NCBI RefSeq assembly: GCF_000003815.2 | Contig: NC_049987.1 | Coordinates: forward strand, 5,864,784 to 5,928,783 | Direction of reading: 5' to 3' | Source: Branchiostoma floridae | Taxonomy: Eukaryota; Chordata; Leptocardii; Amphioxiformes; Branchiostomatidae | Length of the DNA stretch: 64,000 bases | Shown: positions 5,596-61,111 of the stretch, piece by piece | Position numbering within the stretch: position 1 is the stretch's first letter | How the letters are laid out: the number at the start of each line of letters is the position of its first letter | The notes under the pieces: model-generated | What the model saw: only the letters and a program-made list of their open reading frames with translations | Told to the model about the DNA's origin: nothing | Databases searched by the model: none | Program-made: the position numbers and the translations under genes

Positions 5596-5613
5596 CTTGG
5601 TGTTACTGCACAG

Positions 5614-22340: not shown

Positions 22341-22644
22341 TGAATCTCTAGCTGTAGAATGCTATACGGAAGTTCCTGTACAAGTAGTACCTTGTCAATA
22401 AAGTTCCCCTACGTGTCGTGTTATAATATCACATACAACTCAGCTCACAAAACTGTTAAATACGATATTGGCCTAATACAACTTTGCAGAAACATACAGT
22501 TGCATTCTTTCTTACACATCCAGCTAGCATCCGAGATAGGACAAAAAATCTGTCAAGTGTCTCTCTCCACTTGACGTAGTTTGATTATCTTCTTAATGCA
22601 TTTATGGTTGTTAACAAGTTGTTCTCGTGAACCTTATTTGCTTC

Positions 22645-22756
22645 TTATCTCTCCAAGGAGTCGTCACAAGGCACAGTTGTCTCGTGATTGCTGTGACAAG
22701 ACCCATCCTGGTCACTGTAAGCAGCTGCAATCGCAAGTTTGTTCTTCTTCTTCAAA
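22645..22756 (-). CDS. Gene A cytoplasmic-tail exon (truncated)
   Basis: It follows acceptor ATGCGCAG and encodes FKKKK-like stop-transfer residues, then LAIAAAYSDQDGSCHSNHET and PCDDSLER, then TAA. In copies B and C this codon is TTA. The ancestral stop is still visible at 22585-22587. Confidence 0.7.
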
Positions 22757-25700
22757 CTGCGCATACGATCAAAGGATACAGAAGGTCAATACACTCACAA
22801 ATAAAATGAGACTATGCAATGTCGTTGGTTGGACTCACACGCAAATTCAAAGTATGAGTATGACAATTAAATATAACGCAAAAAATATCAAATGAGTATT
22901 GGCGCACTCGATATCCCATGACCTGACAGAAAAATTCGTCAGCACAGAAATTTAACTGATGTATACCCAGCGACATGCGTTGTATGTTTTTACATTATGG
23001 ATCACAGGTTGTCAAAATATCTCTTTCTACCACAAATGGCTTGCTTAATTGTAAGTAGCTTCTAGATATCATCAAAAGTAAAAACATCGGTTTGCTTGGT
23101 AATGTTTACACAGCAACATATAAGTACGAAGGGCGTGCCAATAGCCATGATGGCACTTGTAAAAATGATAATAATTCATTTGCACATTGCTATCTATTTC
23201 TAACAATCGGCTAAAAGTGATCTCCCAATGGCCAAAATATTTGCATCATTTGAACGTTACACCTACGTATGGTCGACGTCAAAATCAAAACTTACTGGAT
23301 GATGACAGCAATGGCCACCACAGCAACAGTCACCCCAGCAGCAGCCGATACAAAAGGAACTACAGGGAACGTTGACTCATGTGGCCTGTCTACACCAGGG
23401 TTGGTTGTGCTTGAAGAGGGTGACTGGGCATTGCCATGATAATGTTGTGCAGGGGGTTGTGTGGTTTGGCGGGGAGAAGTATGCAATTTTGTGGATATTG
23501 GAGTTAAAGCACTGGAAAGAGATTCAGTTATGATAACTTGAAGGGAAGGGGTAGTCACAACATTTGGAGAAGTTTCAAAGGTAGTAATGGTAGTGGTTTT
23601 AGATAGAGCTTTGGTGGTTTCCAAAGCTGTATCGAAGCGGGTGCTCTTATCGACCGTAGACTGTGTGGACATCTTTGTTGATAATATTGTCGGCACTAGC
23701 GTTGTAGTCACTGGAAACAGAAATATATCAACAATTTAGAACGCTCATACAATCATAGGCAGATGAATAAGTAGTATCTTTCGTTTAAACAGAGTAAGAT
23801 GAACCCCAGAATAGCTTTTTCCATTATAAAATAGACGCAGATGATACTTGCCTGCTCCGTTAGTTTCTCCAACTATCATGCCATTCTCTGTGCAGTTGCT
23901 CTCTCTATCTTCTTCATAAGAGCAGTTCCCACAGGAGACTGTGATTTCACAATCGTCGTCAGACATGCCGTGGCACAGTTGATGCCCGTTTCTTGTGCCT
24001 GATAATGTTCGCTTCACTTCTCGGTGAAAATCCAAGTCATCGGAATCACAGGACATGTTAAAAGTGAACCGCTGCTTATGTCTCCCCCTGTCTGCAGTTG
24101 GCATTACATTGCATTGCAGTAAGAAAAAAAATACCAATACATAAGCACTGATTGTGACAGACGATATATACAGTATTTACAGGTTGATTGTTCTGGGGAA
24201 ATTCTCCTTAGGCTAGTTCCTTTATAATTTCGTGTGTGTATGTGTGTGTGTTGATGTCGCCAGATCAGCAACGAGATCATCGCATGAGGGTAAGTATAGA
24301 TAGTAGATGCACGAACTTAATACTAATCTAATCATATTAAATGAATGGTTTTGAACGTCAACTCACTTTGACATATGATATCGTCAACTCCCGCGCCTGT
24401 CCATGTTGATGAAGGATTCGTCATGTCACATTCGAATATGTTCCGTCTCTTGTGAACTTTGTCCTCTCTACAGAAGAGAATGCACCTCTGCACTAGATTA
24501 TCCTCGTGGCAGACAAAGGCTCCATGTGTCGGCGGTTTAAGGGGCGGACAAACTGAAATAGAACAAGACAAAGACTTAGGGTTTACGATGATATTTCATT
24601 TCCCTGTACTTCTACCATGTAGCTCAATTTCAGTTTTTGAGATAAATTACTTTACGTGTGGTGTACGCTGGGCAAGTCGTAGCTTATGGTTATTTGGACA
24701 TGATTCGCTGAGTGTAAATTGAACCATGATTGACTGAATATGTAGTATCTTACCATTCTTTTTGCAGTGAAATGTGATGTTATAACTGGCTGAAGAAGTT
24801 CCAGCTATGTCCGTCGCGTAGCAGGTGATATGTGCTGTCTCACCAATGGCGATACGGTCCAGGTGGGTTTGCCTACATATGACATCCTTGATGCCCACAT
24901 TGTCGCCAAAACATGATGAAATCCTGCTTTTAGAGTAGTAGTCATAGAGATTCACGTCACGACACTCCTCTCCGTATAGATTTTGACTGAGATCCGGACA
25001 GTTTAGTATGTGTGGCTCTGTGTTGTCTGGACCAAAATCGTTCGGGGAAAAAAACAGAAATGATACTCAATTATTGTACAATTATCCAAAGTCTGTAAAT
25101 TACGATGATCTCATTAAAGTTGACAACAATACTGAATCTTGCTTATTTTTCTTTTATATCATATTGTCGTGTTAATTTACTGAACTTATTCTACTTTGTA
25201 AACGCAGCCGGAGATGATGACATTTCAAATGAAGAATGTTGTGAAGGTATACAAAATTTAGTATTTTCTCTATAACGTAGTAATGCAGGACATCTTGTAT
25301 CTACAATCCTTCTTCAGTCTTTATGTCGTCACAGTGAGAAAAAACGTACTCACAAGTGCAATAAACGGGTGATAATGATTGAAGTACCTTTGATGAGCAC
25401 ACTGACGTCACAGGTATCATTACAAGCAATGAACCGAGTGACGTGGTACAGGTACAGTCCCGCTTCCAGGGTCTTGCTTGGACTGACTTCATACTTCATA
25501 ATTGGGTACGTAACATTTGGTGACATGATGTTGTCCACTATCGGCGTCATCTCACTGAGTTGAGCGTCAACAGCCTTGACGTAGTTACTGAAGTCAACCA
25601 GGATGTAGTTCTCGTCTTTAGGTAAGGACATATGGATAGATGTGCTCGGGCAACTTACAAAACTGCATGATCTTGCTTCTGTGGGAAGAATAAGGAACAG

Positions 25701-28430
25701 CCTAAAACTTGCTGCAGCATAGGCTTTGTATTATTCAATCAGAACTATTGTAATATTAGAGCTTAGCATTGCTTTAAGTATTTGTATTACAAAAGAAATA
25801 CCATTCAGTTTATCATTCACATGGCTTAAACTTATGGTTTGCATGTTAACTGTAATAAAAACACCAAACCTATGTCAACAATCATACTAAGTCTAGTAGT
25901 TGACGGTACCAACTTTAATTTAGTATAGAGAGACATTTTTAATTGAAATGTACTGTTTTTTATACGACATATTTCTGCCTGTGTTGCCTACCGTGGCAGA
26001 CGATTCCATTGATGGGATGTAAACCATCGTTAGAGCAACACTTATACGATCCTTCTGTGTTGATGCAGTACTCGTCCTCACGATCACATGAGTCTGAGAG
26101 ATACCAGCACTCGTCCACATCTGCACCGGTACATACAATAAAAACGCTGAAGGCATAGGGATAGAAAAGCTTACTCAAATGACACATGTATGCTTATGCT
26201 TGGTTTATCAATATCTGTGATTACCTCCATGCAATATTAAGAGGGGTTTAAATTTTCACTGGCGTTTGTGTGAGTGTGTCTGTGTATGTGTCAACAAGAT
26301 AACTCAAGAACGACTAAACGGTTTATTTTCATACTGGGTGTGTTGATGAGGTGTGACGAACACTGCATATAATTAGATTTTGGGTCCCCTTCACTTCGTT
26401 CTGTAGGAGAACGTTCGGTTTTTATATCTCCTGTTTTGAATAAGCTATGGACTAACTATGGAGTGGTAGATAGATCTTGAGATCGGGAAGAAGTCTGGGC
26501 TTCCTAGCGGCTAGGTTTTTTTTTCTAAATATTCCAAATAAGAATAACGGGTTTCATGATTTCTGGTATGGAGGTATCCAGACCAAAATGTATAAAATGG
26601 AATGCAGGTCATGCAAATTGGGGAACATTTGCATGAAATATACAAAAGCTCTAAATATTTCATGGAGGTATGAGCTCGCCGAACTCTAGTTTATATTACG
26701 TTTCAAGGTGACAAAGAAACAACGTTAACAATGGGCATAAAACGATGAGAAAATATATGTTCTAATGATTCATGAAGATATTGTTTATCCACTGATTTTT
26801 TTTCTACATCTGGCATGACGTCAAACAAGAGACAAAGACTTATTCATCCATAACAGTATAATTGCAGTCTGCAAACCTTCGCACGGTCAAGAACACGTAA
26901 CTAACGAGTATTATAGACCAGGTACGTCATATTTTCAAAATTCTGGGGTATATGCTTGATCACAGTTCGGAATCAGGTAACGTTGAGGGGAACACCTATG
27001 TAATCCACATAAAAATGGCCTGATCACGGATTATGTCCATATTTTGTAATCTAAAACATGCAGGAAACATTACCTTCTTCACATTGATGGCCTTCCCATC
27101 CTTTATCACATTCACAGTTGTTCGTATTGACACACAAGCCGTGTTCACATGGGAGGTAACAGTCCGCTGCAGGAATGAAAAGATTTCCAATCAGTAACTT
27201 TCAATGAAATATTTGCTTATAGATTGGTAATCTCCATCGCTCACTCACCCAATACAAAGTATTGGAATGAGGTTTTTACCCGGCTTGAAGAGAGCCACAC
27301 TCAACTCTTTGTATAGTAACACTACACAAATATTGCAGGTACACTTACCACTTACCATGTAATTTAGTAGTCCTTTGGTGATTTTTAGAAGTCATATCTA
27401 TTTTCATTAATTAATCCTAATATAAAGTAACCTGACATGTATATATATATACATGTACACTGCTGTCGTCATAATCAAGTCGTCCACGTTTTGAGAAAAA
27501 TAATAGTGTCTAACCCTGACAGGTGTCGTTGATCCTGTTCCAACCGACGCAGCACTTGTAGTCAATAAAGTACTCCGTGGCGTAGGCAATCATCAAACTC
27601 CGGGGGTTTCTAACAACAAGTAAAATTGTGACGTAAGTACTATGAACAAGCAATCATTTGGGAGATATCAATCTGAGGCGAACATGCTCAGTACACGCCA
27701 TTAAATCGTCACATAGAGCGTATGAAATGAAAAAAAGGTAAAACAACGGATGAATGGTATGTTATGATTGAAGTGATTATACCAGGGGTAATTTTGCAAT
27801 AAACAGTACTCAACTATTCACAAGGGCATACGCAAATCTGGCGGGGAGTATCATTAGTTAAATGTGAATATTCTTATAAGATTAGAAACTAGTATCACCA
27901 GTCATGTTACATTTCTCATATAAATAGGTAAAGTTCAGCACAAAGGTATGACCCTGTATGGAATTATGACATAGCTGTCACAACCATACCTATGACACTA
28001 ATGTAAAATGCGCCTAATGTTTCACACCTGGCCTTTTTAATCCCAAAGACGTCCAACATCCTCAGGTAGTCCCAGAGCCCGGATGAAGGTTCCCGTTTCC
28101 TCCTGTTCTCGATGGTGTACATCACGGTTCGGGACGCCTGGCGTGTGCACACAGCTCCATCGGGCCTGCGTAGATTATGAGACCATACGGTACAATGAAT
28201 AATATGGACTATATATTTGTGATTTGAGAGGGCCCAGTAAATTTTTTTAAGCTAACGATGATGTTGAACTATATTTTGAGTCAGATATATACTATAATAT
28301 TACCACGGGGAAACATACATTCCGTCACAAGTATGAACGATGACGAATGTACTCACCCACGAAGCAGGGCCGGTGCAATAGTGGCGAACCCTGAAAACAG
28401 TAAGTATCCCAACAACGTCAGGTGGTTCAT
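22645..28430 (-). CDS. Gene A: EMI-EGF-HYR-sushi-mucin transmembrane protein
   Basis: Eleven exons were read by splice phase and total 2046 bases, 682 codons including stop. In order they encode a signal peptide (28430-28357), EMI domain (28165-28028 and 27609-27515), EGF (27166-27074), calcium-binding EGF (26120-25992), HYR-like module (25678-25388), HYR (25026-24754), sushi (24552-24367), cysteine module (24091-23852), Ser/Thr-rich stalk plus transmembrane helix (23710-23296) and cytoplasmic tail (22756-22645). The tail meets TAA at 22645, where genes B and C have a Leu codon and continue about 20 more residues. A cell-surface receptor or adhesion role is inferred from architecture only. 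Homology to genes B and C runs through every core exon. Confidence 0.82.
23296..23710 (-). CDS. Gene A stalk and transmembrane exon
   Basis: It encodes a Thr/Ser/Pro-rich segment, a conserved juxtamembrane YHG...QSPSS..TNPGV block, and a Val/Ala-rich helix ending AVII before donor GTAAGT. The stalk is about 138 codons, much shorter than in C. Confidence 0.82.
23852..24091 (-). CDS. Gene A cysteine-module exon
   Basis: It encodes RFTFNMSCDSDDLDFHREVK and CEITVSCGNC. It lacks the extra DACSQD segment and one further Cys found in C. The donor is AG/GCAAGT, a GC-AG intron, where C has GTAAGT. Confidence 0.72.
24367..24552 (-). CDS. Gene A sushi (CCP) exon
   Basis: It encodes CPPLKPPTHGAFVC, then C..FC, C and W..., with a closing Cys. 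The spacing is that of a CCP module, 62 residues long, phase 1 to 1. Confidence 0.82.
24754..25026 (-). CDS. Gene A HYR exon
   Basis: It encodes PHILNCPDLSQ ... ITCYATDIAGTSSASYNITF. The NCP opening and TC.A.D.AG...C/Y.ITF close are hallmarks of HYR domains. Confidence 0.8.
25388..25678 (-). CDS. Gene A HYR-like exon
   Basis: A 97-residue beta-rich module with CSFVSCPSTSIHMSLPKDEN at the start and ACNDTCDVSVLIKG at the end. It is probably a divergent HYR/Ig-type fold. Phase 1 to 1. Confidence 0.78.
25992..26120 (-). CDS. Gene A calcium-binding EGF exon
   Basis: DVDEC opens the module and CINTEGSYKCC follows, fitting the cbEGF consensus (D.DEC ... C.N..GS(Y/F).C). Phase 1 to 1. Confidence 0.8.
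27074..27166 (-). CDS. Gene A EGF exon
   Basis: Encodes ADCYLPCEHGLCVNTNNCEC and DKGWEGHQCE, a six-cysteine EGF module of 31 residues. Acceptor CATTCCTGCAG; the exon is homologous to 46989-47081. Confidence 0.82.
27515..27609 (-). CDS. Gene A EMI exon 2
   Basis: Encodes SLMIAYATEYFIDYKCCVGW and NRINDTCQ, the CC.GW end typical of EMI domains. Enters in phase 2 and leaves in phase 1. Confidence 0.8.
28028..28165 (-). CDS. Gene A EMI exon 1
   Basis: Encodes GPDGAVCTRQASRTVMYTIE then a basic NRRKRE and GLWDYLRMLDVFG. Acceptor CTACGCAG, donor GTGTGA. Confidence 0.72.
28357..28430 (-). CDS. Gene A signal-peptide exon
   Basis: ATG at 28430 encodes MNHLTLLGYLLFSGFATIAP, a clear hydrophobic signal peptide, and ends LLRG before donor GTGAGT in phase 2. 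Matches the start exon of gene B in sequence and phase. Confidence 0.82.
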
Positions 28431-29010
28431 TTTAAGTCCGCTTTACAGGGACTGCGTGCTAGATCAAAAATTGAACCGTGCAAGACGTTGCCTTACATCT
28501 CACTGTGCTCTACAGGGAATTCCCAGGCAAACAATGCTGTTTATTTCAACCATATCAGGTACTAGTATCTGATTCTGTGACGGTCATCAGTCTTTTGGGG
28601 TTTCAGACAAAACAAACACCGTTTGTTTTCTTGACGGTAAACATCTGTTCAACGTCATTGTTGACAGCTTAGCTCAAAGGTTCCGAGTACAAGTAAAACA
28701 CCAAATAGCCCTACATTCGTATGAGAGTTTCAGTGTTTTCTGTTGCTATTCCCATTTATTAGTTTTTTTCGGCTATGTCCAAGTGGTTGCGCCTAGTGCC
28801 ATACTGTAATCGCTGCGTGGGACCTAGAGCAGCTCTTTGGGTTGATCAAGTTACTTGCTATAGAACTGCTGTGTATACTGTGTTAACAATTGGGTTGGTG
28901 ACTTTATGTCATGGGACAAAGAAAACAATCCCACCCGCCTTTCAATTCAAGTCCGTTGAATGGTTTTAAATTTCTTCAAGACTGTTATTCACCCGAAGGG
29001 AGCCTGCCAT
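28431..29010 (-). promoter_or_regulatory. Upstream region of gene A, duplicated in front of gene B
   Basis: The block around 28557-28610 (CTTTTGGGGTTTCAGACA) and the segment at 28770-28970 recur in the same order at 50660-51130 upstream of gene B. This indicates that the promoter was copied with the gene. Confidence 0.45.
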
Positions 29011-30975: not shown

Positions 30976-31150
30976 TTATCTTCTTAATGCATTAATGGTT
31001 GTTATCCAGTTATTCTCGTGAACCTTATTTGCTTCTAATCTCTCCAAGGAGTCGTCACAAAACACAGCTGTCTCGTGACTGCGTTGACGAGAAGCATCTT
31101 GGTCAGTGTAAACAGCTGCAATAGCAAGTTGCTTCTTCTTCTTCTTGAAA
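30976..31150 (-). CDS. Gene B cytoplasmic-tail exon
   Basis: Acceptor ATGCACAG. It encodes FKKKKKQLAIAAVYTDQDAS through KVHENNWITTINALRR and stops at 30976. Intact compared with gene A. Confidence 0.78.
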
Positions 31151-34100
31151 CTGTGCATACGATCAAAAAATACAGTAGGTCAATACATTCACAATCAAAA
31201 TCTGATACTATGAAATGTCATTGGCTAGACCCAAACGTACGTTTAAAGTATGAGTATGAAAATTAGATATGATTCAGAAAATATTAAGAGTATTGGTGCT
31301 CTCGATATCCCATGACCTGACACAGAAACATTCGTCAGCACAGAAACATTCGTCAGAATTTTATCTGATTTATACCCAGTGACATGCGCTATATGTATTT
31401 ACATTAGTTGTCAGAACATGACATTCTACAACTTTAAATGGCTTGCTCTTAAGTAACGTCTAGATTAACGTCAAAAGTAATGGGCAAAATATTGGTTAAC
31501 TTTGCAATATTTTCACAGCCACAGAAGTACAATAGGCGTGGTGTTGCTAATAGCAATGATGTGACACTTCTAATAATAATAATAATTCATTTGCACATTG
31601 CTATTTATTTCAGCTAAATGTGATCCTCCAATGGCAAAAATGTTTGCACGTTATACCTACGTATGGTCGACGTCAAAATCAAAACTTACCAGATGATAAC
31701 AGCAATGGCCACCACAGCAACAGTCACCCCAGCAACAGCCGATACAACAGGAACTACAGGGAACGTTGAGTCATCATGTGACCTGCTCACACCAGGGTTG
31801 GTTGTGATTGAAGACGGTGACTGGGTAGTGCCATGGTAATTATACATAGCAGGAGGCGGGGTGGCTTGACGGGGAGAAGTGTACATATTTGTGGATGTTG
31901 AGGTTGAAACACTCGACGGAGCTTCAGATGCCGTAATGACGCCAGGTGGAAGTTCAGTCTTCGTTGTAATAGATGAAGTTTTAGGTGAGCTTAAGACTGT
32001 TGCGAACGTAGCTGTTGTTTTTGCAGTGTTTGTATGGGGGTATGTGGCAGTTTTGGTTGCAGTGTTTGTATGGGGGTATGTGGCAGTTTTGGTTGCAGTG
32101 TTTGTATGGGGGTATGTGGCAGTTTTGGTTGCAGTGTTTGTATGGGGGTATGTGGCAGTTTTGGTTGCAGTGTTTGTATGAGGGTATGTGGCAGTTTTGG
32201 TTGCAGTGTTTGTATGAGGGTATGTGGCAGTTTTGGTTGCAGTGTTTGTATGGGGGTATGTGGCAGTTTTGGTTGCAGTGTTTGTATGGGGGTATGTGGC
32301 AGTTTTGGTTGCAGTGTTTGTATGGGGGTATGTGGCAGTTTTGGTTGCAGTGTTTGTATGGGGGTATGTGGAAGTTGTCTTTGCAGTGGTGTGAGGGTCA
32401 GGGGAGGTCGTAGTGGTTGATGTAGTTGTGGTGGTGACTTGTGGCTTAGGAAGAAGGGGTGAGGTTGGAAGAAGTCTTAGATGCGTGGTTTTGGTGCTTC
32501 TGGTATGAGTAGCTGTTGTTGTGGTGGGTGTGAATAGAGAAATGGATCTAATTAATGTGGATAAAGCGGCGTTGGTTGTAGTGGTTGAATGATTTAACTA
32601 GTAGCTGTGTATATTGGAGCCTTTGGTGAGGTTGAGTTTGTTTGGAGTGAAGCAACAGTGATACTTGTTGGCGCTGTGACTGAAGTTACAGTACTACTAG
32701 TGTTGAAAGAAGGTCCAAGGGCATTGGAGGTGGTGATTTCGGTGGGCTCCCTGTTGCTTGTACTAGCACTGGTGGCCTGTCCGGGTNNNNNNNNNNNNNN
32801 NNNNNNNNNNNNNNNNNNNNNNNNNNNNNNNNNNNNNNNNNNNNNNNNNNNNNNNNNNNNNNNNNNNNNNNNNNNNNNNNNNNNNNNNNNNNNNNNNNNN
32901 NNNNNNNNNNNNNNNNNNNNNNNNNNNNNNNNNNNNNNNNNNNNNNNNNNNNNNNNNNNNNNNNNNNNNNNNNNNNNNNNNNNNNNNNNNNNNNNNNNNN
33001 NNNNNNNNNNNNNNNNNNNNNNNNNNNNNNNNNNNNNNNNNNNNNNNNNNNNNNNNNNNNNNNNNNNNNNNNNNNNNNNNNNNNNNNNNNNNNNNNNNNN
33101 NNNNNNNNNNNNNNNNNNNNNNNNNNNNNNNNNNNNNNNNNNNNNNNNNNNNNNNNNNNNNNNNNNNNNNNNNNNNNNNNNNNNNNNNNNNNNNNNNNNN
33201 NNNNNNNNNNNNNNNNNNNNNNNNNNNNNNNNNNNNNNNNNNNNNNNNNNNNNNNNNNNNNNNNNNNNNNNNNNNNNNNNNNNNNNNNNNNNNNNNNNNN
33301 NNNNNNNNNNNNNNNNNNNNNNNNNNNNNNNNNNNNNNNNNNNNNNNNNNNNNNNNNNNNNNNNNNNNNNNNNNNNNNNNNNNNNNNNNNNNNNNNNNNN
33401 NNNNNNNNNNNNNNNNNNNNNNNNNNNNNNNNNNNNNNNNNNNNNNNNNNNNNNNNNNNNNNNNNNNNNNNNNNNNNNNNNNNNNNNNNNNNNNNNNNNN
33501 NNNNNNNNNNNNNNNNNNNNNNNNNNNNNNNNNNNNNNNNNNNNNNNNNNNNNNNNNNNNNNNNNNNNNNNNNNNNNNNNNNNNNNNNNNNNNNNNNNNN
33601 NNNNNNNNNNNNNNNNNNNNNNNNNNNNNNNNNNNNNNNNNNNNNNNNNNNNNNNNNNNNNNNNNNNNNNNNNNNNNNNNNNNNNNNNNNNNNNNNNNNN
33701 NNNNNNNNNNNNNNNNNNNNNNNNNNNNNNNNNNNNNNNNNNNNNNNNNNNNNATGAATGAATGAATGAGTGAGTGAAAGAATGGTCTATTGCTAAACAA
33801 TCGTATCGATGACAATGTATGGCAGTTGTAAAGTTTCAGTTATTAAAAAAAAACATTATTAACTCACCTCTGCAGCTGACATGATCCACATTTACACCAG
33901 TCCATCTCGGAGAAGGGCTGTTCGGGTCACATCTGAAGATGTCTTCAATGCGCCTTGTATGAAACTTCCCTTCCGTGCAGATGAGAGCACATCGGTGTTC
34001 TTGCTGGTTTTCGTGACAGACAAACGCTCCAAACCCCGGTGGCTTCAGCGGTGGACAATCTATATTATATTATATTATATTATATTATATTATATTATAT

Positions 34101-38440: not shown

Positions 38441-38478
<38 letters not shown>

Positions 38479-50400: not shown

Positions 50401-50530
50401 ACCACGAGGAAACATACATTCCATCACAGGTATCAACAATGACGAAGTGTACTTACCCACGAAGTTGGACCGATACAATAGAGACGAACCCTGAAACCAG
50501 TACGTATGATAACAACGTGAGTTGGTTCAT
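30976..50530 (-). CDS. Gene B: long EMI-EGF-sushi-HYR-mucin transmembrane protein
   Basis: Exons read from the 5' end encode signal peptide (50530-50457), EMI (50261-50157, 50056-49962), EGF (47081-46989), cbEGF (46554-46423), a truncated EGF (to 42399), sushi (41069-40848), two polydom-like exons (40236-40043, 39618-39288), GCC2/GCC3-like (38818-38657), an unknown exon (38025-37865), two EGFs (37539-37402, 37194-37057), HYR-like (35359-35072), HYR (34705-34433), sushi (34059-33868), stalk/TM (gap edge to 31690) and tail (31150-30976). The 5' and 3' ends match gene A. The middle cassette is extra. Problems are a frameshift in the stalk near 32595, a truncated EGF exon, a phase break after 37865 and the 967-base gap. 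It may be a decaying gene, an assembly-damaged gene, or two genes merged. Confidence 0.65.
31690..32786 (-). CDS. Gene B stalk and transmembrane exon (frameshifted, 5' part in gap)
   Basis: A Thr/Ser/Pro-rich frame ends with the conserved juxtamembrane block, a Val/Ala-rich helix and donor GTAAGT. It contains ten 36-base repeats (32023-32382). Above 32600 the Ser/Thr-rich frame is a different one and hits TAA at 32594-32596. Below, the frame matches gene C (IRSIS...TTTTATHTRSTK against FISPS...TTTTVTRTQSTK). Confidence 0.68.
32023..32382 (-). repeat. 36-bp coding minisatellite, ten units
   Basis: Ten head-to-tail units of 36 bases encode the 12-residue repeat TATYPHTNTATK on the minus strand. 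Most unit differences are synonymous (CCC/CCT Pro). It is a mucin-type O-glycosylation substrate by composition. Confidence 0.9.
32787..33753. other. Assembly gap (967 N)
   Basis: Run of N lying between the stalk and the sushi exon of gene B. The cysteine-module exon expected here by comparison with genes A and C is probably hidden in it. The sequence resumes with an (ATGA)n run. Confidence 0.99.
33868..34059 (-). CDS. Gene B membrane-proximal sushi exon
   Basis: Encodes CPPLKPPGFGAFVC ... RCALIC ... RCDPNSPSPRW ... VSC, a CCP module. Its acceptor AG (34060-34061) is the last part of a TATAT microsatellite. Donor GTGAGT. Confidence 0.82.
34061..34178. repeat. (TATAT)n microsatellite at a splice acceptor
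   Basis: About 118 bases of a 5-base TATAT/ATATT unit. On the minus strand it reads ATATAATATAG and ends exactly at the sushi exon, replacing the usual pyrimidine tract. Confidence 0.95.
34433..34705 (-). CDS. Gene B HYR exon
   Basis: PQLLNCPSFEHHLQGDSCRD ... SVTCQAKDIVGNPSADCDIT. Same length (273 bases) and phase as in genes A and C. Confidence 0.82.
35072..35359 (-). CDS. Gene B HYR-like exon
   Basis: CSFACCPRPRIELTLPEHQN ... ACSDTCEFSVIVKG. Homologous to 25388-25678 and 57041-57331. Confidence 0.82.
35674..35861. mobile_element. MITE with 35-bp terminal inverted repeats
   Basis: Left AAGGTGCACTCTCACCGGAC and right GTCCGGTGAGAGTGTGCCTT are inverted copies, flanked by TA on both sides. 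A related terminus is seen at 63924-64000. Confidence 0.7.
35869..36963. mobile_element. Element with C/G-rich inverted ends, about 1.1 kb
   Basis: GCCGGTGTCACAGCG plus a C-run at the left is mirrored by a G-run plus CGCTGTGACACCGGC at the right. Subterminal GGCGAAATCACTAGCGAT is repeated near the left end. It lies in a gene B intron, without coding capacity. Confidence 0.55.
37057..37194 (-). CDS. Gene B EGF exon (duplicate 2)
   Basis: DINACSNNPCDAQATCVDNP ... CTCHAGYIGDG. 138 bases, phase 1 to 1. Close tandem duplicate of 37402-37539. Confidence 0.82.
37402..37539 (-). CDS. Gene B EGF exon (duplicate 1)
   Basis: DIDACKENPCDAQATCLDNP ... CTCNAGYTGDG. Same length and phase as the exon 345 bases downstream, so a recent exon duplication. 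Confidence 0.82.
37705..37760 (+). mobile_element. Mariner-like terminus
   Basis: ACGAGGGGTGATCAATAAGT resembles Tc1/mariner terminal repeats. Only one end was recognised. Confidence 0.3.
37865..38025 (-). CDS. Gene B exon of unknown module
   Basis: The frame is open between acceptor AATTTAG and donor GTAAGT and reads SGIYDPLLQSCVPD and GSYCNSRRVHSVNKADG. No family recognised. It enters in phase 1 as required but leaves in phase 0, while the next EGF exon needs phase 1. This implies a missing exon or an indel (a six-G run lies inside). Confidence 0.4.
38444..38475. repeat. (CA)n microsatellite
   Basis: Simple CA repeat. The apparent transmembrane-like frame on the minus strand here is an artefact of CV-type codons. 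Confidence 0.9.
38657..38818 (-). CDS. Gene B GCC2/GCC3 (ephrin-receptor-like) exon
   Basis: CPSGFYFDEQNNTCVDCPLG and CPNGTWTEDIGS with regular Cys spacing. This is the cysteine-rich module found in polydom/SVEP1-type and related proteins. Phase 1 to 1. Confidence 0.75.
39288..39618 (-). CDS. Gene B exon preceding the GCC module
   Basis: VTCGTRSKRS, then IDFTLTVAAENTTDNQTASE and a LTCPAGMAW...C end. It enters in phase 0 and leaves in phase 1. It resembles the linker preceding GCC2/GCC3 in polydom-type proteins (inference from memory of the layout). Confidence 0.65.
40043..40236 (-). CDS. Gene B exon after the outer sushi module
   Basis: IYFYYNGNCSDPAVQQQIKI and NRFSVVCRLALIRDRDSGGC. Enters in phase 1, leaves in phase 0 at GTAAGT, and joins the next exon cleanly. 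Confidence 0.65.
40848..41069 (-). CDS. Gene B outer sushi exon
   Basis: ALDCPLLNVPANGALVCGWW ... YCSLDGIW ... PDCS. CCP pattern, 74 codons, phase 1 to 1. Confidence 0.78.
41929..42140. repeat. Two tandem copies of a ~104-bp unit
   Basis: The GGTTTCAGCTTGTCTCGGAT and CGCTATTACGGCAAACTCCC blocks are repeated almost exactly. They continue into the repeat shared with 80-250 (inverted). Confidence 0.85.
42399..42508 (-). pseudogene. Gene B EGF exon truncated by an inserted repeat
   Basis: GCEHFCTNVPGGRYCSCRPN, then YRRVDGRKCR, is the second two-thirds of a cbEGF module ending at a good donor GTAGGA in phase 1. The first two cysteines and the acceptor are missing. Upstream is TE sequence with no AG dinucleotide for over 60 bases. 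Confidence 0.6.
42505..44670. mobile_element. Composite repeat element with internal tandem units
   Basis: It starts with a duplicated 43-bp hairpin-forming unit (TTTCAGCCATACATAGTATG). Four roughly 161-bp tandem units with a GTACCCTGGTATTACAA core follow at 42790-43330. Two diverged copies of a 600-bp block follow (about 43320-43915 and 43925-44665), each with CCAATCAGCGAAGAGGA and TTAATATTCATAAGCGGGGC. No transposase seen. The 205-codon frame on the minus strand is the tandem repeat read through. Confidence 0.6.
44671..46260. other. Gene B intron, no exon recognised
   Basis: AT-rich sequence. A near-perfect hairpin lies at 45614-45660 (CTGAAAATTGTTAATGAC arms). No splice-bounded coding segment was found. 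Confidence 0.4.
46262..46331 (-). CDS. Possible small exon of gene B
   Basis: Open frame ATEAENCLFLDKEGLYLISR before a perfect donor GTAAGT, with an acceptor-like GAATTCAG in the right phase. No domain match. Could be chance. Confidence 0.25.
46423..46554 (-). CDS. Gene B calcium-binding EGF exon
   Basis: DIDECARGDSGCAQNCHNTH and GSYFCTC. A textbook cbEGF. Acceptor TTTCTGCAG, phase 1 to 1. Confidence 0.82.
46989..47081 (-). CDS. Gene B EGF exon
   Basis: ADCHFPCHHGLCVETNVCEC and DDGWEGAQCE. 93 bases, as in gene A. Its acceptor CATGTTTTCTGTAG is the template of the minisatellite immediately upstream. Confidence 0.82.
47084..47575. repeat. 29-bp minisatellite, proximal block
   Basis: About 17 units of 29 bases. 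Read on the minus strand each is TTTTCTGTAGCGGACAGTTA plus CTTCCCATG. This equals the splice acceptor and first bases of the adjoining EGF exon. Confidence 0.95.
47567..48837. mobile_element. TIR element inserted in the minisatellite
   Basis: Left end AACATGCATTGGCATAATAC plus CGGCC is mirrored by the right end GGCCGGTATTATGCCAATGG plus ATGTT. An internal 80-base segment (48389-48472) repeats the right end (48752-48831). No transposase was recognised, so it is likely non-autonomous. Confidence 0.6.
48832..49470. repeat. 29-bp minisatellite, distal block
   Basis: About 22 further units of the same 29-base repeat, including a higher-order duplication (about 48850-49010 against 49100-49260). 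One variant lacks a base in the TACATAAACAT units. Confidence 0.93.
49962..50056 (-). CDS. Gene B EMI exon 2
   Basis: SFVTVYATEYFTDYECCVGW and NRINDTCQ. 95 bases, same phases as gene A. Confidence 0.82.
50157..50261 (-). CDS. Gene B EMI exon 1
   Basis: GPDGSVCTRHASRQVMYTRE, then basic residues and IVCLPVV. 33 bases shorter than in gene A, but the phase is kept. Confidence 0.75.
50457..50530 (-). CDS. Gene B signal-peptide exon
   Basis: MNQLTLLSYVLVSGFVSIVS followed by VQLRG and donor GTAAGT. A hydrophobic secretion signal, 74 bases as in gene A. Confidence 0.82.
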
Positions 50531-52941: not shown

Positions 52942-53113
52942 CTATCTTCTTAATGCAGTCATAGTTGTTAACAAGTTGTTCTCGTGAACTTTCTTTGCTT
53001 CTAAACTCTCCAAGGGGTCATCACAAGGCACGGCTGTCTCGTGACTGTGGTGACAAGAGCCATCTTGGTCACTGTAAGCAGCTGCAGTGACAAGTTGCTT
53101 CTTCTTCTTGAAA
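52942..53113 (-). CDS. Gene C cytoplasmic-tail exon
   Basis: FKKKKQLVTAAAYSDQDGSC, then HHSHETAVPCDDPLESLEAK and a KVHENN...ALRR end. Intact relative of the truncated gene A tail. No ITIM or ITAM is visible. Confidence 0.78.
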
Positions 53114-56100
53114 CTGCGCATGCGATGTTAAGGACGACAATCAATCATAATGCAGAAGAAAGGCAAATAAGTATGTGTACACACAATATTCCATGACCTG
53201 ACAGAAAAATCCGTCAGCATAGAAACATTTGTCAGAAATTTATCTGAATTATACCCAGCGACATGCGACATCAGCTAAAAGTGATCCTCCGATGGCAAAA
53301 ATATTTGCATCAGTTGAACGTTATGGCTACACGTATGGTCGATGTTAAAAATCAAAACTTACCAGATGACGACAGCGATAGCCACCACAGCAACAGTTAC
53401 TACGGCAACAGCCGATATAACAGGAACTACAGGGAACGTTGAGTCGTCCTGTGACCTGCTCACGCCAGGGTTGGTTGTGGTTGAAGAGGGTGACTGGGAC
53501 GTGCCATGGTAATTATGCATAGCAGAAGATGAGGTGGTATGCAATTGTGTGGATGTTGGAGTTGAAGAACTCGTTGGAGATTCAGATGTCGTCATGACAC
53601 CAGGTGGAAGTTTAGTCTTCGTTGTAATGATCGAAGGTTTAGCTGAGATTGAGCCTGTTTCAAAATCAGCAGTTATGGTTTGATAGAAAGAGATGTCTGA
53701 AGTGGTTGGTGTTGGCATAGTAGTGACTCTTTGTTTTGTAGGAAAAGATGCGGTTAGGAAAAGTGGTACATCTTTGATTTTGGTGCTTTGAGTACGGGTT
53801 ACAGTTGTGGTGGTAGCTGTAGATGGAGAAATGAATCTAGTTCCAGCCGTCATAGTGGGTATAGGTTTGGGCGAGGTGTTGGTGACTGAAAGTTTGGACA
53901 AGGTCGAGGATTTTGGGTGTATATCTAGTATATCTGTGGTTGTGAAACATTCAGGGGAAGAAGCTGATGCGGTGAACGGTGTGGAGGGCGGAGGGAAAGA
54001 TATGTGTTGTGTACCAGTACTTGTGACGGTTTGAGCGGAATGCGGTCGTTTGGTAGGTGGTGTTATTGCTGTAGTTTTAGTAATGCTGATGGCTGATGGT
54101 GTATAAACATCATTAGTAGCAGGTCCCTCAGTTGTACTTGAACTTAACACGTTCTGAACAGTTGTAGGCAATGTTGTCGTCATGAGTTGAAATGTGGTAG
54201 CAGATTGAAGGGAAGGGGTAGCCTCTACGTTTCTAAAAGTGAAGGGAGTTTCAGAGGTAGTAATGGCAGTGATTTTAGGTAAAGATATTGTGGTTTTCAA
54301 AGCTGTATAGAGACGGGTGCTCTGCTCAACAGTAGACTGCGTGGCCATCTTTGTTGTCGGCACAAGGGTTGTAGTCACTGTAAGCGGAAATATATCAACA
54401 ATTTAGAACGATAATACAATTATATGAATGTGATATCTTTCGTTTAAATAGATTAAGACGAAATCTAGGAATAACTCTCTCCTCCATTATAAAATGACGA
54501 AGATGATACTTACCTGCCCCACAGGTGTCTCCAACTATAACGTCAATCTCTGTGCAGTTGTTGTGAGAAGACACGGTTTCTTGATCTTGACTACATGCAT
54601 CGCTCTCTCTATCCCCTTTATTGGAGCAGTTCCCACAGAAGACTGTGATTTCACAATCGTCGCCGGACAAGCCGGGGCACAGTTGATGCCGGTTTCTTGT
54701 TCCTGATAATGTTCGCTTCACCTCTCGGTGAAAATCCATGTTATCGGGATCACAGGACACGTTGAAAGTGAACCGATACTTATGTCTCCCCCTGCCTGTA
54801 ATTGACATTACATGACACTGCAGTAAGAAAACGAAATAAGAATGTGTAATGTTTGTGTGTCTGTGTAGTGTATGTGTACGTGTGTTTGAGTAGTGTATGT
54901 TTGTGTGTGTTTGTGTGTGTTCATGTGTGTATGTGTGCATGCGTTCGTGTGTGTGTGTTTTTGTACAATACCATAATGATGTTAATTCATGAAGTTCACA
55001 GTCCTGATTGAATACGTCATCGCCTTATCAGCAACGAGATCACCACGTGGTTGTAACTATAGATAGTAGATAGACGAAATATATTAAATACTAATGTAAT
55101 TATGATAACTGAATGGTTTTGAAGAACAACTCACTTCGACATATGATATCGTCGACTCCCGCGCCTGTCCATGTTGATGAAGGATTGGTCATGTCACATT
55201 CGAATATGTTCCGTCTCTTGTGGAATTTGCCTTCCTTACAGAAGAGAGCGCACCTCTGCACTAGATTATCCTCGTGGCAGACAAAGGCTCCATATGTCGG
55301 CGGTTTAAGGGGCGGACAAACTGAAATAGAATGGGACAAAGACTTTGAGGTTACGATAATGTTTAATTTCATTGTACTGCTAAATTCCACTTCATGAGAG
55401 GAGTGGAGCTGTGTGGTGTGCGCTGCATGGCCAAATCGTAACTGTCTTGTCTTAGCTCATGGTTAATTGTACAGGCTTGGCTATGTGTAAGCTGAAGCAT
55501 GATTGATTGAATATGTAGCATCTTACCATTCTTCTTGCAGTAGAATGTGATGTTATAACTGGCTGAAGAAGTTCCAGCTATGTCCGTCGTGTAGCACGTA
55601 ATGTGAGCTGATTCACCAATGGCAATGCGGTCCAGGTGGGTTTGCCTACATATGACATCCTTGATCCCCACATTGTCGCCGAAACATGATGCAATCCTGC
55701 TTTCGGAGTAGTAGTCATAGAGATTCACGTCACGACACTTCTCCCCGTACAGATTTTGACTGAGTTTCGGACAGTTTAGTATTTGTGGCTCTGTGTTGTC
55801 TGGACCAAAATTGTTCGGGGAAGAAAACAGAAATAATCATTAGTTTGCAATCATTCTCGATCCTTAGGTTACCGTTATGATGTTAAACACGGCGGTCGGT
55901 TGCTAGGGTATTCTTTCCCGTTGCTATGCGCGTTCGACAGAATATCGGGTTACTGGAGGCCTACTTTTGGCTACCCGTAAAATATTTGGAAATAAACAAA
56001 TCGTTTTGACAAGGAAAATGTTTTCAAAATAATATTAAATTAGCAATTTTACATACATTGAATGTTGTCGTTTGAATTTAGATAGCTGTTTTGTTTCGAT

Positions 56101-59100
56101 GTTACTAAAAAAGATGATCATTTTCTGTTTTCAGGTAGGCCTTTAATTTGACCAAACTCTTGATAAGATAGGCCGCATGTATCATCGAAAATTCTCGTTT
56201 TTTGTATTTTTCGTCATCTATGAGGAAAATAAAACTTTCTGTTTTTGGGATTTTTTAATTTTTAATTTTAAGCAAAGTTATAGTCGAAAATATGCGTAAA
56301 TATGGCATTTTTCGCACTTAATTACGAATAATTCAAAATCGAAGGCATTTTCTAAAAATCCCAAAAACAGAAATCTCGGGAAAATCATGGCGGTCATTTT
56401 GAGCCGTCAACGAGTTAATTTGGACTCTTCCTGGTCGCGATCTTAAACGAAGTTTGTAAGCATGTCATGCCGCACGGATAGCGGGAGGGTGTAATTGATA
56501 CCGGTGTAAACACTTACAATATTCAAGGTCACCAACACAAACGTCAGTAGCTTCGTTAAATATCACAGGTCCCAAACAAAGTGATAGCATGGATGTACTG
56601 TCAAGAAAATTGTTTATATTTGTGAAAAACTATCTTTTTTGGCTGATTCAAGGTAGTTTGGGAAAAAAAGGCCAGAGAGTAGTGTTTACCGGCAACGACC
56701 GCAGATGACCCCAAATAGAACACGGGTTCGGTTCGAATTACGTCAGATGGAATATCGTGGAACAAGGTTCCAATTCGGCTAGACATGGGAGGTTTTGAGC
56801 CCCTGAGCCCGTATTTGACCACCGTGAAACTAGACAACGATAATGAGTCTTGCTGACGTAGTTTAATTACGTGAACTTTCTTATTTGTAAACGGATATGA
56901 GAACATTTGCAATAAATAATGTTGTGGCGGTATACAAAGATTAGTATTCTCTCTATAACATTACAATGACTTTTAAGTTAATGACAATATGCAACGTTAA
57001 CAAAAGAGCGACAATAACCAAACTTAAATACTAATCTTACCTTTGATGACAACACTGACGTCACATGTATTATCACAGGCAATAAAGCGAACGACGGGGT
57101 ACAAGTACTGTTCCGCTTCCAGGGTATTGCTTGGAGTGACGCGATATTTCATAATTGGGTACGTAACATTCGGTGACATTGTAGTGTCCACTATCGGCGT
57201 CATCACGCTGAGTTGAGCATCAACAGCGATGACGTAGATACTGAAGTCAACCAGGATGAAATTATCGTCTTTAGGTAAGGACATATGGATAGATGTGCTT
57301 GGGCAACGTAGAAAACTGCATGGCTTTGCGTCTGTGGTAAGAAAAATGTACAATCTCAAGCTTGATGCAGATAGAAACTGTATCATTCAATCAAAACTAT
57401 TATAATATATATAAATATATATAGTTATCACATAGCCAGGAACGTGGACCAATCAGAAGGTTGTGACGCCACAACACATAGATTCCGTCCAGCCCAGTGT
57501 TAAAAAAATCAACACCGGTGTTGATTGTTTTTAACACCTGACCAATCAGACGGAGGGATACACAGGAAAGTAACCAATCAGAATAGCACAGAGCATGGAG
57601 GAAAGATCGGACCCCGCAACACGATGGTAAAATTTGGCCCCAAAATTTCCAGACTTCTATTTGGGGATTTAGAACACGAATCATGTTCCATCTGACGTAA
57701 TCGAACAGAACGCTGACGAGATCGAACAGAACGGACGTTCTATTAGGCCCCGTTCATGATACAAAAAATGAAACGGTTCTATCGGTTAGGCCTGGAAATC
57801 CGACAGCAAACGACAGGAAACGGTTTGCATTTTGCGTTCACGATGCAAACTTGCAAACCGTTTCAGTTCCTTGAAAATGCAAGGTAATGCGACCTCTGAC
57901 CCCTGAGGTTGTTGTGATCTTGCCCAAACTTGTACTTCTGTGTCAGATTATTGGTCTTTGATCGAAATTGAACCAATGTCTTACTGAATTGGAAGCTGGG
58001 TTCTGTTATGACCTTGGAAATGCCTCTGAAAACATTGTGGTCCCGATATATGCCATTCTATGACATTTCCACTGGATCTCCTGACACATTCCCCTTACGA
58101 TATCAGGAATGCTAGCTCCTCAGTCGACCAAGAGGCGGCCCGATTATAGAAACGAATCGTACGATTGAAAACGCGGCCGAAACACCCGAATGACAGGTTA
58201 AAATTGTACTTTTGCCCCGTGGCGCCACCAAATATGAACGCACATGCCCGGATGTAAAACGGATCGCGCCGCTTTTGCGTTCATGATACAAATTCGCAAT
58301 TCCGGATAAGGAAGAAACCGTTTCAATACTACCTCGCGAGGTGGTTCCGAACAAACCGTTTCCTATCGCTTCAGATCCGTTTCGGACCGTCCATGATGAC
58401 AAAACTTATCCGTTTCAGCTGGCCTAACCGATAGTAACCGATAGAACCGTTTCATTTTTTGTATCATGAACGGGGCCTTAGAGGTCACCCGCGGTCATCC
58501 GCAGGTTGTTACAGTAAACACGCAGAAAGAAGTTTTCCTGGGTGCCGTGCGTCAGAAGAAAAACTAACATTTTCGCAAATATAAAACGTTATCTGGCAAG
58601 TTTAGTTTTGCTGCCGCCAAGTTAGAATATGTGACATGTAACAAAGCTGTTGGCGTCATTATTGGTGACATTGAATATCACAACACTTGTTTACGGCGGT
58701 ATCAATTACTCCATGCCCCTATCAATGTTACTCGACATACGGCCAAACATGGTATTTAAATCGCTTACAAAACGCGTGCAAATCAACTCTTTGAGGACTT
58801 CAATTGTCGACAACTAATATCTCCAGGTTTGTGTCTTAGGGATTTTTGGAATATGGAGGCAATTTTGAATTACGAGTCTTTGAGTGTGAAAAACATGATT
58901 TTTCGACCTTATCTTGGCTGTAAAAATAGTTCTAAGTACAAGTTCAAAAATCCCTAAGACAGAAAGTTTGATCTTACAATCATTACTCATATGATATAAA
59001 ATATTTGGATTTTCAGTCAAATTTAGGACGGATTTAAATATGGTATTTGTTTTTTTTAGCACCAAACACCCTTTCTAAATCAACCAACTAGGCAGAAAAC

Positions 59101-61111
59101 ATTGAAACAAAACTGTGCAGCACACGTACACGGTAAGATTTGACGTGTACACACTGCCAATTTTTAAATTGCCAATTAATGAATACAGTACAGTAAAAGT
59201 TTGAAAAGGTTTGACATGCCAAGACTGCAATATTTTCTGTTGAAATTTTGGTTTCAACATGTAATCTGTAATCTCCTTACAAAGTTATGTACCAAAGAAC
59301 AAATGTGAATTTTCAGAACTTCGACAAAGGAATTCACTCAGGAGTTTGCAAGTTTGGGTAGGCTATATGATAATAACGTTAATGACCCGCCTGTTCCTCG
59401 TTGTATACACGAGGAACAGGCGGGTCATTAACGTATACATGTATATTGTGTGATAACGCCTGGTCCTTTGCTAAAACCACCGAAAAAACACCGAGTGAGC
59501 GAAGAATCCCAAATATAGTTTTTTTTTTTTTAATTTTACATTGCCGATGACAAAAGTTACGAGGGAAACGAAACAACTTTCATTATCACATAGGTACAGC
59601 CTAATCAGGTGCCAAAATACATAATGATCCACCGAGCCGCTAGTAAGATACAGCTGCAAAAACAACCCCAAACTCGGACAGTTTCAAAACCTCCCGTCAG
59701 GAGGTGATCCTCCTTTCCCTGAGGTAACAAAATGTTAATACATCACAGTGTACATACCGACGCAGGTTGCATGGACCGACGGGACGAACCGCCATTGGCT
59801 TCCGTCCCTCAGCTGCCACACTGGCCTGGTCTGGTCCGGTGTCATGGCACAGTCGTTGACGGATAAATCGTAGCCGTAGCCGTAAAAGTTTCCCCAGACC
59901 CGCCACTGTTTGTAGTAATCGTAGAAGAAGAGAAAGTCTTGGCTGTCCCTGTCGCTAACATAGACAGGCCTGCCGTCCCTGGTCTGGTTTGTCCTGGTGT
60001 AGGTTGTCATGCGGGAAGGTTGGTAGGTGGCGTCACCTTCCAGACTGACCCTCGTACAATCTGTAGTGTTGCTTACCGGTTGTGGAACTACAGCACCAGC
60101 TGGGACGTCATCTGAAACAAACAAGGAATAAAATGTAGAACAATAGAGCAGTCAAAGGTAGCTAATACTCAAGGTTACAAAATGTGGTCAAACAAGAGGG
60201 CAACCAGGATTTAAAGGGGAAATGAAACCTTTCGGTTAGATGTAACGTTATTGCAAATTGGATTAACTTAAGCATTAAACTTTTCGACGATTATTTGTCT
60301 ATATTATAATAGCTCATGAAATGATGCAAATTGGACATGTGGCGACGGCACTGCGTAATGGTGGGGTGTTTGGCAGAGGTCCTGGGTTCGAATCTCCTGA
60401 CATGTGCCGTTCACAATTATTTGTGCTCTTGGAATGGTAGTTTATACGTCTATCTTCACTTCGCTCAGGTGAAAATAATTACCCAGCTTCGGCAAGGGAC
60501 ATCCATCGGATAGGACGTTAAATGGAAGTCCTGTGTTGGAGGAAAGTCACATTTAATACCTAAATGAACCCACCACAATTACCACAATGAGCAGGGCTCC
60601 TTTCCGTTGTGATTAGAATTTTTAGATCAAATAAATCTGCCCGGATATGCAGTTTGTACTCTTCAATACAAACCTGTTGTGTTATGCCCAGATGCCGCTT
60701 TCCGGGTATGCAATACAAACAAAAATGTCCCTTATGTAATAAAAATATCAAATGTAGGGAATGTAACGTTTTATATGTAACGCCAAATATAGTGTTAGTT
60801 CTACGAACCAGAGCAGGCGATTTTTGCATCCGTGTTTTCTCTCCGCCGTCCGTCCCACAGAAAGAAGGTCCCGTTGATCTCGTCCGCGTAGAGATGGGAG
60901 TCATCGACTTTGATACTTTGGTACCACCTGCCCCCAACCTGCGGCCCTACACACCACTCCAGGATGCTGCCACACTTGTAATACAGGAAGTCGCAGGTGG
61001 CGTTGCTGTAGTACACGGGACGGCCCTCGCGGGTGTCTCCCGTCATGGTGTAGGACGTCATCATGGCGACATTAACGGTGGTGGAGGCGTATAAGACAAC
61101 CATTGGACAAC
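52942..61111 (-). CDS. Gene C: GRPVY-HYR-sushi-mucin transmembrane protein (5' end open)
   Basis: Eight exons read by splice phase encode GRPVY modules 1 (61111-60809) and 2 (60111-59758), HYR-like (57331-57041), HYR (55799-55527), sushi (55320-55135), cysteine module (54795-54514), stalk plus transmembrane helix (54377-53363) and cytoplasmic tail (53113-52942). All junctions are in phase 1 except stalk/tail, in phase 2. With one base from the missing 5' exon the total is 959 codons. The core matches genes A and B, while the outer part is different. No frame damage was seen in the exons read. A possible signal-peptide relic lies near 61850. Function is not known; the architecture is that of a cell-surface recognition or adhesion protein. 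Confidence 0.78.
53363..54377 (-). CDS. Gene C stalk and transmembrane exon
   Basis: About 338 codons, extremely Thr/Ser/Pro-rich, without tandem repeats. It ends with a juxtamembrane YHGTSQSPSSTTTNPGVSRS block and a Val/Ala-rich helix. Donor GTAAGT in phase 2. Confidence 0.88.
54514..54795 (-). CDS. Gene C cysteine-module exon
   Basis: RHKYRFTFNVSCDPDNMDFH, CEITVFCGNC, DACSQDQ and GDTCGAG. Has two more cysteines than gene A. Family not recognised. Donor GTAAGT. Confidence 0.75.
55135..55320 (-). CDS. Gene C sushi exon
   Basis: CPPLKPPTYGAFVCHEDNLV ... FECDMTNPSSTWTGAGVDDI. Almost identical to gene A, 186 bases. Confidence 0.85.
55527..55799 (-). CDS. Gene C HYR exon
   Basis: ITCYTTDIAGTSSASYNITF and a DVICRQTHLDRIAIGE middle. 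273 bases, nearly identical to gene A. Confidence 0.85.
56330..56790. repeat. Left arm of a large inverted repeat
   Basis: Blocks such as GTAATTGATACC..TAAAC, ATATTCAA.GTCACCAA and ACGTCAGATGGAA recur in inverted order at 57640-58960. The arms flank the HYR-like exon of gene C. Confidence 0.6.
57041..57331 (-). CDS. Gene C HYR-like exon
   Basis: CSFLRCPSTSIHMSLPKDDN ... ACDNTCDVSVVIKG. 291 bases as in gene A, phase 1 to 1. Confidence 0.85.
57498..57537. repeat. 40-bp near-perfect palindrome
   Basis: The central AATCAACACCGGTGTTGATT is a perfect 20-base palindrome, extended by A-run and T-run flanks with GTGTTAAAA/TTTTAACAC. Confidence 0.85.
57640..58960. repeat. Right arm of the large inverted repeat, with nested element
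   Basis: Inverted counterpart of 56330-56790, interrupted by the element at 57746-58477. A short inverted pair (TGTCTTAGGGATTTTTG) lies near 58832 and 58948. Confidence 0.55.
57746..58477. mobile_element. PIF/Harbinger-type MITE, 732 bp, TTA target duplication
   Basis: The ends GGCCCCGTTCATGATACAAA and TTTGTATCATGAACGGGGCC are perfect inverted copies, continuing into ~50-base TIRs. TTA flanks both ends. A 3-bp TTA duplication and GG..CC termini are typical of PIF/Harbinger. No transposase frame. Confidence 0.85.
59376..59434. repeat. Perfect 26-bp inverted repeat with 7-base loop
   Basis: Arms ACGTTAATGACCCGCCTGTT plus CCTCGT and their exact complement flank TGTATAC. It lies in a gene C intron. 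It could be a snap-back duplication or a small-RNA hairpin; no evidence decides. Confidence 0.95.
59758..60111 (-). CDS. Gene C GRPVY module 2 exon
   Basis: MTTYTRTNQTRDGRPVYVSD, FLFFYDYYKQWRVWGNFYG and DGSQWRFVPS..ATC. 118 codons, phase 1 to 1. It shares order and core with module 1. Family not named here. Confidence 0.78.
60330..60550 (+). repeat. tRNA-derived SINE
   Basis: B box GGGTTCGAATCTC near 60384 with an A-box-like start at 60340, then a body ending GGACGTTAAATGGAAGTCCT. It lies in the intron between the two GRPVY exons. Confidence 0.65.
60809..61111 (-). CDS. Gene C GRPVY module 1 exon
   Basis: MMTSYTMTGDTREGRPVYYS, CDFLYYKCGSILEWCVGPQV and GTFFLWDGRR..TDAKIAC. 101 codons, phase 1 to 1. 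The donor GTTCGT is weak. Confidence 0.75.

Follow-up and report, generated by a model that had tools for sequence, protein, structure and literature searches.

Rapid and frequent shuffling of phase 1-1 exons has been described in lancelets, where it produces new domain combinations (Huang et al. 2014, PMC4284660). In Botryllus, uncle fester retains the 3' exons of fester while its amino-terminal half is without homology (PMC12065747). Here we describe three neighbouring lancelet genes, A, B and C, located within a window of 64,000 nucleotides (C9:5864784-5928783 of an assembly of 513 Mb in 431 contigs); exon coordinates below are positions in this window. We conclude, with a probability of roughly two in three, that the three genes belong to a small family which evolved as exon mosaics and whose products are type I single-pass membrane proteins.

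Exons were placed using open reading frames, splice signals and mutual alignment and were then joined into spliced models. A, B and C are all encoded on the minus strand, no spliced model contains an internal stop, and most exons are of phase 1-1. The model of gene A begins with a signal-like sequence, ends in a stop codon and comprises 11 exons encoding 681 aa:

28357..28430, minus strand: exon 1, signal-peptide-like, out phase 2
28028..28165, minus strand: EMI-like exon 1 (2-2); end and donor position match neighbouring gene J
27515..27609, minus strand: EMI-like exon 2 (2-1)
27074..27166, minus strand: EGF exon (1-1)
25992..26120, minus strand: cbEGF exon (1-1); EGF_CA over cut-off, 65% aa identity to the first cbEGF of J
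25388..25678, minus strand: HYR-like exon (1-1), C type
24754..25026, minus strand: HYR exon (1-1); nucleotide identity 92% with C, 67% with B
24367..24552, minus strand: sushi-like exon (1-1)
23852..24091, minus strand: membrane-proximal (stalk) exon; GC donor
23296..23710, minus strand: mucin-like and transmembrane exon (1-2)
22645..22756, minus strand: cytoplasmic tail exon; early stop

Judged by open frame and hydrophobicity, A carries a signal peptide, an ectodomain, one transmembrane (TM) segment and a tail in a single frame, as in a type I single-pass protein. Its stalk donor reads CAG/GCAAGT, that of C CAG/GTAAGT, and its tail stops about 20 residues earlier than those of B and C.

The model of gene B comprises 14 exons, all GT-AG, encoding 812 aa from the signal peptide to the core sushi-like exon, where it meets a 967-N gap (32787-33753) covering the position of the stalk exon:

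50457..50530, minus strand: exon 1, signal-peptide-like
49962..50261, minus strand: EMI-like exons (50261-50157, 50056-49962)
46989..47081, minus strand: EGF exon
46423..46554, minus strand: cbEGF exon; EGF_CA over cut-off, 88% aa identity to the second cbEGF of J
40848..41069, minus strand: inserted sushi-like exon; spliced model, without Pfam match
39288..40236, minus strand: unnamed linker domain in two exons (40236-40043, 1-0; 39618-39288, 0-1)
38657..38818, minus strand: GCC (Ephrin_rec_like) exon, by Pfam
37057..37539, minus strand: two EGF exons of the insert (37539-37402, 37194-37057), by Pfam
35072..35359, minus strand: HYR-like exon, D/E type
34433..34705, minus strand: HYR exon; 91% nucleotide identity to D, flanking introns unalignable
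33868..34059, minus strand: core sushi-like exon
31690..32597, minus strand: mucin-like and transmembrane reading frame; exon start not placed, 967-N gap upstream
30976..31150, minus strand: cytoplasmic tail exon

A further candidate exon of B at 45853-45737 was dropped, the sushi pattern being absent in any single frame. Several repeats lie in the gene: a 36-bp minisatellite of 10.2 copies (32021-32388) codes for 12-residue repeats in the mucin-like exon, two 29-bp arrays (47062-47572 and 48829-49478) adjoin the EGF exon, the first starting at 47062 only a few bases from its acceptor, and a TATAT repeat of 23.6 copies (34061-34178) directly 5' of the core sushi-like exon leaves a poor acceptor tract. 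Within the large intron, 42537-45923 has copies on contig C167 (L037/L042) at 93.6-97% identity, split by extra sequence. We considered whether C167 is simply an allele of B; the match at 93.6-97% is limited to 42.5-45.9 kb of the B intron, and none of the head or insert exons of B was found in the 30 kb of C167 examined. A mobile segment therefore fits better than an allele, and the copied stretch is perhaps a mobile element.

The model of gene C comprises eight open exons, from the first GRPVY module (GR1) to the tail stop:

59758..61111, minus strand: GRPVY modules (1-1), GR1 61111-60809 and GR2 60111-59758; grafted block about 61184-59553
57041..57331, minus strand: HYR-like exon
55527..55799, minus strand: HYR exon
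55135..55320, minus strand: sushi-like exon
54514..54795, minus strand: stalk exon
53363..54377, minus strand: mucin-like and transmembrane exon (1-2)
52942..53113, minus strand: cytoplasmic tail exon
61834..61905, minus strand: fragment similar to the A/B signal exon, 5' of the GRPVY modules, lacking a GT donor

Elsewhere in the window, minus-strand open frames at 7496-9067, 11093-13869 and 15691-17178 resemble voltage-gated potassium channels by eye (TMTTVGYGD motifs), and a long minus-strand open frame at 4702-5682 has a coiled-coil-like composition.

A preliminary description of this DNA had proposed that A, B and C form a tandem cluster in which different heads precede a shared set of core exons of equal order, phase and, in most cases, length. 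The cluster with different heads is supported, and the spliced models agree in exon order and splice phase. The HYR-like (291, 288 and 291 bp in A, B and C), HYR (273 bp in each) and core sushi-like exons (186, 192 and 186 bp) are all of phase 1-1, and the TM exon leaves in phase 2 to meet a tail exon entering in phase 2, directly in A and C and via the same donor in B. Near-equality of length holds for the HYR-like, HYR and sushi-like exons but not for the stalk exon (240 bp in A, 282 in C) or the mucin/TM exon (415 bp in A, 1015 in C), and the core set is common to the three genes for the most part, except that the place of the B stalk exon is hidden by the 967-N gap. The whole-genome search for core exons that had been suggested was carried out in one genome. 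With the C core as query it returned at least 22 matches at six or more loci, 22/22 in the same order, an arrangement beyond chance:

A, B and C: inside the window
Locus D: C9:5929952-5931502, just right of the window, on the opposite strand to A-C and head-to-head with C; 3' end beyond a 100-N gap
Locus E: on C15
Locus F: at the start of C167

The HYR-like exon of D (L031:4952-5239) is interrupted by a TAA stop. A query of the TM segment and tail gave 10 matches in the genome, seven in A, B, C and F and three weak ones elsewhere; the tail of E was located by eye.

The domain names given at the outset stood in part. EGF, cbEGF and GCC were confirmed by Pfam: EGF_CA (PF07645; cut-off 27) scored 33.0 bits in A and 33.6 bits in B, and B additionally exceeded the cut-offs for EGF, EGF_3 and Ephrin_rec_like/GCC2_GCC3 (PF07699; 51.1 bits in the insert, cut-off 23.1); the GCC portion of the insert also matched thyroglobulin (E 9e-7). 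HYR, sushi, EMI and GRPVY, in contrast, were without Pfam support. HYR (PF02494) matched none of the family exons and none of the 50 genome matches listed fell on C9. Against a profile of eight genomic HYRs, 4/11 exons (HYR-like of A and B, HYR of D and E) scored above all 500 shuffles, F tied with the best shuffle, and the HYR exons of A and C scored among the shuffles; profile-profile probabilities to HYR were 25% for the HYR and 18% for the HYR-like exons. Sushi (PF00084) gave no match for the core sushi-like exons of B, C, E and F or for the B insert, the sushi-like Cys-Trp spacing being seen by eye only. EMI (PF07546) matched neither the A nor the B head; of the 10 places in the genome that it matched with E no higher than 0.1, none was on C9, and neighbouring gene G stayed below the cut-off at E 0.091. 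The GRPVY modules had no relevant Pfam match, and no credible relative with a solved structure was found by sequence for the core or GR2. The labels HYR, sushi and EMI are accordingly best read as resemblances.

The two ends of gene A are B-like, and its middle, from the HYR-like to the stalk exon, is C-like. A and B are 81-86% identical in the signal-peptide, EMI-like and EGF exons; their first introns agree at 82% and the 600 bp upstream at 76%. In the core, their identity is 61-67% in exons and 46-47% in introns. A and C are 86-94% identical in the HYR-like, HYR, sushi and stalk exons and 67-85% in introns; in the HYR-sushi intron the values are 77% for A-C and 47% for A-B. Synonymous divergence (dS) between A and B is 0.34 in the head (88 codons), 1.53 in the core (239 codons) and 0.094 in TM segment and tail (61 codons); between A and C it is 0.23 in the core (293 codons) and 0.27 in TM segment and tail. 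In a sliding profile of A, 29100-28051 aligned to B only, 25800-23551 best to C, and 23400-21451 to B, with C joining over the TM and tail stretch. The junctions of A lie at approximately 26.9-25.8 kb and 23.55-23.4 kb. Three-way site counts were AB 30, AC 229 and BC 32 in the core, and AB 53, AC 26 and BC 29 in the TM end, TM-tail intron and tail (chi-square p 7e-24 for the difference). Split by pieces, the 3' part showed an A-B preference in the intron (p 0.0008) and none in the TM end (p 0.14) or tail (p 0.21). The TM end and tail are 84-90% identical in all pairs, and the TM-tail intron 84% in A-B and 69% in A-C. A clade of A and B was rejected by the AU test for HYR (p 5e-40) and HYR-like exons (p 1e-46); a grouping of A, B and C was not rejected for HYR (p 0.075), and in the HYR-like tree the three lie on one side of a branch (82/85). 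The sushi-like exon of B is about equidistant from the other five loci (57-63% aa).

That the assembly created A as a chimera, by fusing B-like and C-like genes or haplotypes that were themselves left unassembled, is very unlikely. Two N gaps do lie within the window, and PMC2632668 describes swapped alleles and misassembled sequence at amphioxus VCBP genes in a previous assembly. However, both gaps lie outside A, the A model is open across both junctions, and its segments are 8-25% divergent from B and C, too much for copies of the same sequence. A mosaic history of the family is, from these comparisons, very probable.

The idea of a constant core with exchanged heads is therefore not supported in that form: the core itself comes in two types, one in A and C and one in B, D and E, while that of F stands apart, and in A a C-type middle lies between B-like ends. 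The best-kept parts are the TM segment and tail rather than the core. The movement of phase-compatible exons between genes, as opposed to a fixed core, is borne out by the histories of the individual segments; shared blocks, discordant histories and phase 1 joins, as in lancelet 1-1 exon-shuffled genes, all occur here. Exchange also reaches single exons. Windows of the HYR exon are 80-100% identical between B and D, identity drops at the exon edges, and introns are mostly below 60%; dS is 0.135 for HYR, 0.48 for HYR-like and 1.4 for sushi. The HYR exons of B and D thus share recent history, a pattern that would fit short conversion tracts confined to exons. As a mechanism, tandem duplication would have produced neighbouring copies, between which non-allelic gene conversion or unequal crossing-over would have exchanged segments; exchange would have shrunk to exon islands once introns diverged, and phase-compatible heads would have been grafted onto the core.

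Relatives of the heads were found beyond the cluster. Gene J (C9:5969270-5982832) contains EMI-like exons 1 and 2, an EGF exon and two cbEGF exons, of which A and B each seem to have kept a different one; relative to J, head exchange is directly seen in this difference. Weak HYR-like matches near J (C9:5971678 and 5978086) overlap a dispersed repeat that also occurs at 37.6 kb of the window and were discarded. In a survey in which 150 of 1361 candidates were scored, triads of EMI-like 2, EGF and cbEGF exons were found in this order in G, at C9 5957.8k and 5962.7k, and on C5, C7, C10 and C167 (twice); among the places listed, a triad stands directly 5' of a core only in A and B.

In C, head exchange can be seen directly, as a GRPVY graft whose relatives lie at other places in the genome. 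Together with its introns and 3' flank, the block is 76-86% identical in pieces to three loci (L057-L059) on C7 and at C9 23.4 Mb. With a limit of E 0.01, a search with GR2 returned 52 matches; besides C itself, 15 were at least 68% identical (C1, C4, C7, C9, C14, C164 and C217), 14/15 with a weaker GR1-like match up to about 3 kb upstream. By eye, L057 and L058 have heptad-like repeats and a hydrophobic segment 5' of GR1. The sequence after GR2 in L059 resembles Chitin_bind_1, although at E 0.0013 it stays below the cut-off. These modules could instead be a transposed gene fragment lying beside C, with C starting elsewhere or dying, a reading that we hold possible though somewhat doubtful. 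It would account for the match extending through introns and 3' flank, and for the neighbours of GR2 in L057 and L058, which by eye resemble a different protein type. A search up to the window edge found no first exon with a signal peptide for C, and dN/dS of C GR2 against L057-L059 is 0.75-1.08, so that constraint is not demonstrated. Yet GR1 and GR2 are open and of phase 1-1, and their donors join the core in frame.

Most dN/dS values are below 1, typically 0.15-0.7, and concatenated pairs of the core give 0.2-0.37. The exceptions are short exons: the EGF exon in A-B (1.19) and B-J (1.81) and GR2 in C-L057 (1.08); for the A-B TM segment and tail the ratio is 0.109/0.094, about 1.2. Diversifying selection is thus not demonstrated, and neither, with six loci found and these ratios, is the proposed diversifying surface-recognition family. 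The same figures would suit ordinary extracellular-matrix or adhesion paralogues, among which gene conversion only homogenises neighbours and exchange is without adaptive significance; matrix proteins, moreover, commonly contain EGF, GCC and sushi-like modules. We regard this as a real but lesser possibility: here exchange yields new head-core pairings rather than uniformity, and the GRPVY head is a graft. The short tail and GC donor of A, the stop in D and the lack of a found first exon in C mean that some copies may be decaying. That most copies are pseudogenes, their mosaic reflecting neutral decay, would also agree with the ratio of about 1.2 in the A-B TM segment and tail; it is nevertheless unlikely, the 681 aa of A and 812 aa of B being open and the core ratios low.

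For the mosaic membrane proteins that we prefer, the products are most likely surface receptors or adhesion proteins presenting different heads on one TM/tail module. A receptor or recognition role is an appreciable possibility that falls just short of even: the sequence shows the architecture, the exchange and the conserved tail residues, from which we infer expression, binding and signalling. In the tails of A, B, C, E and F, the residues K, K, A, Y, Q, H, V and D are invariant, and Y-x-x-Q is present in 5/5 tails found. Y-x-x-Q is one of the forms at which STAT3 docks in vertebrates, which for these tails is a lead at most; no classical signalling motif was identified. With lower confidence, the different heads would feed one TM/tail module via this conserved tyrosine. 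A bolder scheme, germline cassette exchange with a shared TM/YxxQ anchor, core conversion confined to exons and heads drawn from distant families (EMI-EGF neighbours and GRPVY genes), strikes us as distinctly improbable; if true, it would provide populations with a haplotype-varying repertoire for recognition of self or microbes.

Our literature search, which covered few subscription papers, found nothing on the A-C family. Matrix proteins of the SVEP1/polydom type combine HYR, sushi, GCC and EGF modules; A, B and C differ in being membrane-anchored and in having HYR and sushi modules too divergent for Pfam. Fester and uncle fester resemble the family in a kept anchor with a replaced head, a sushi domain and gene-content variation, but fester has Ig and sushi domains, three TM domains and a tested role in allorecognition (PMC12065747); A-C show no Pfam match to Ig or sushi and, by eye, a single hydrophobic segment, their one TM segment, and so stand outside the fester family. 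The VCBP genes of amphioxus, also a lancelet family, likewise lie in clusters and exchange segments, and gene conversion has been proposed for them, but their products consist of V-type Ig and chitin-binding domains, neither of which Pfam found in A, B or C (PMC2632668). Amphioxus FrLRR is a lancelet surface receptor of proposed exon-shuffling origin, but with folate-receptor and LRR domains and tested in phagocytosis (PMC10199209); the Hydractinia Alr genes offer a looser parallel (PMC11067881). With the exon-shuffled genes of lancelets the cluster shares 1-1 shuffling. Heavy shuffling of this kind is already published, and the A-C cluster is a clear example of a known process. Most known lancelet examples are endpoints; at this locus one can still trace the donors, the grafts and the exons that were exchanged, and introns mark the limits of exchange. 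If expressed, the cluster would make it possible to test directly whether functional surface receptors with a common tail arise by shuffling. While the published survey is genome-wide (PMC4284660), in the A-C family head, core and anchor each have a history of their own.
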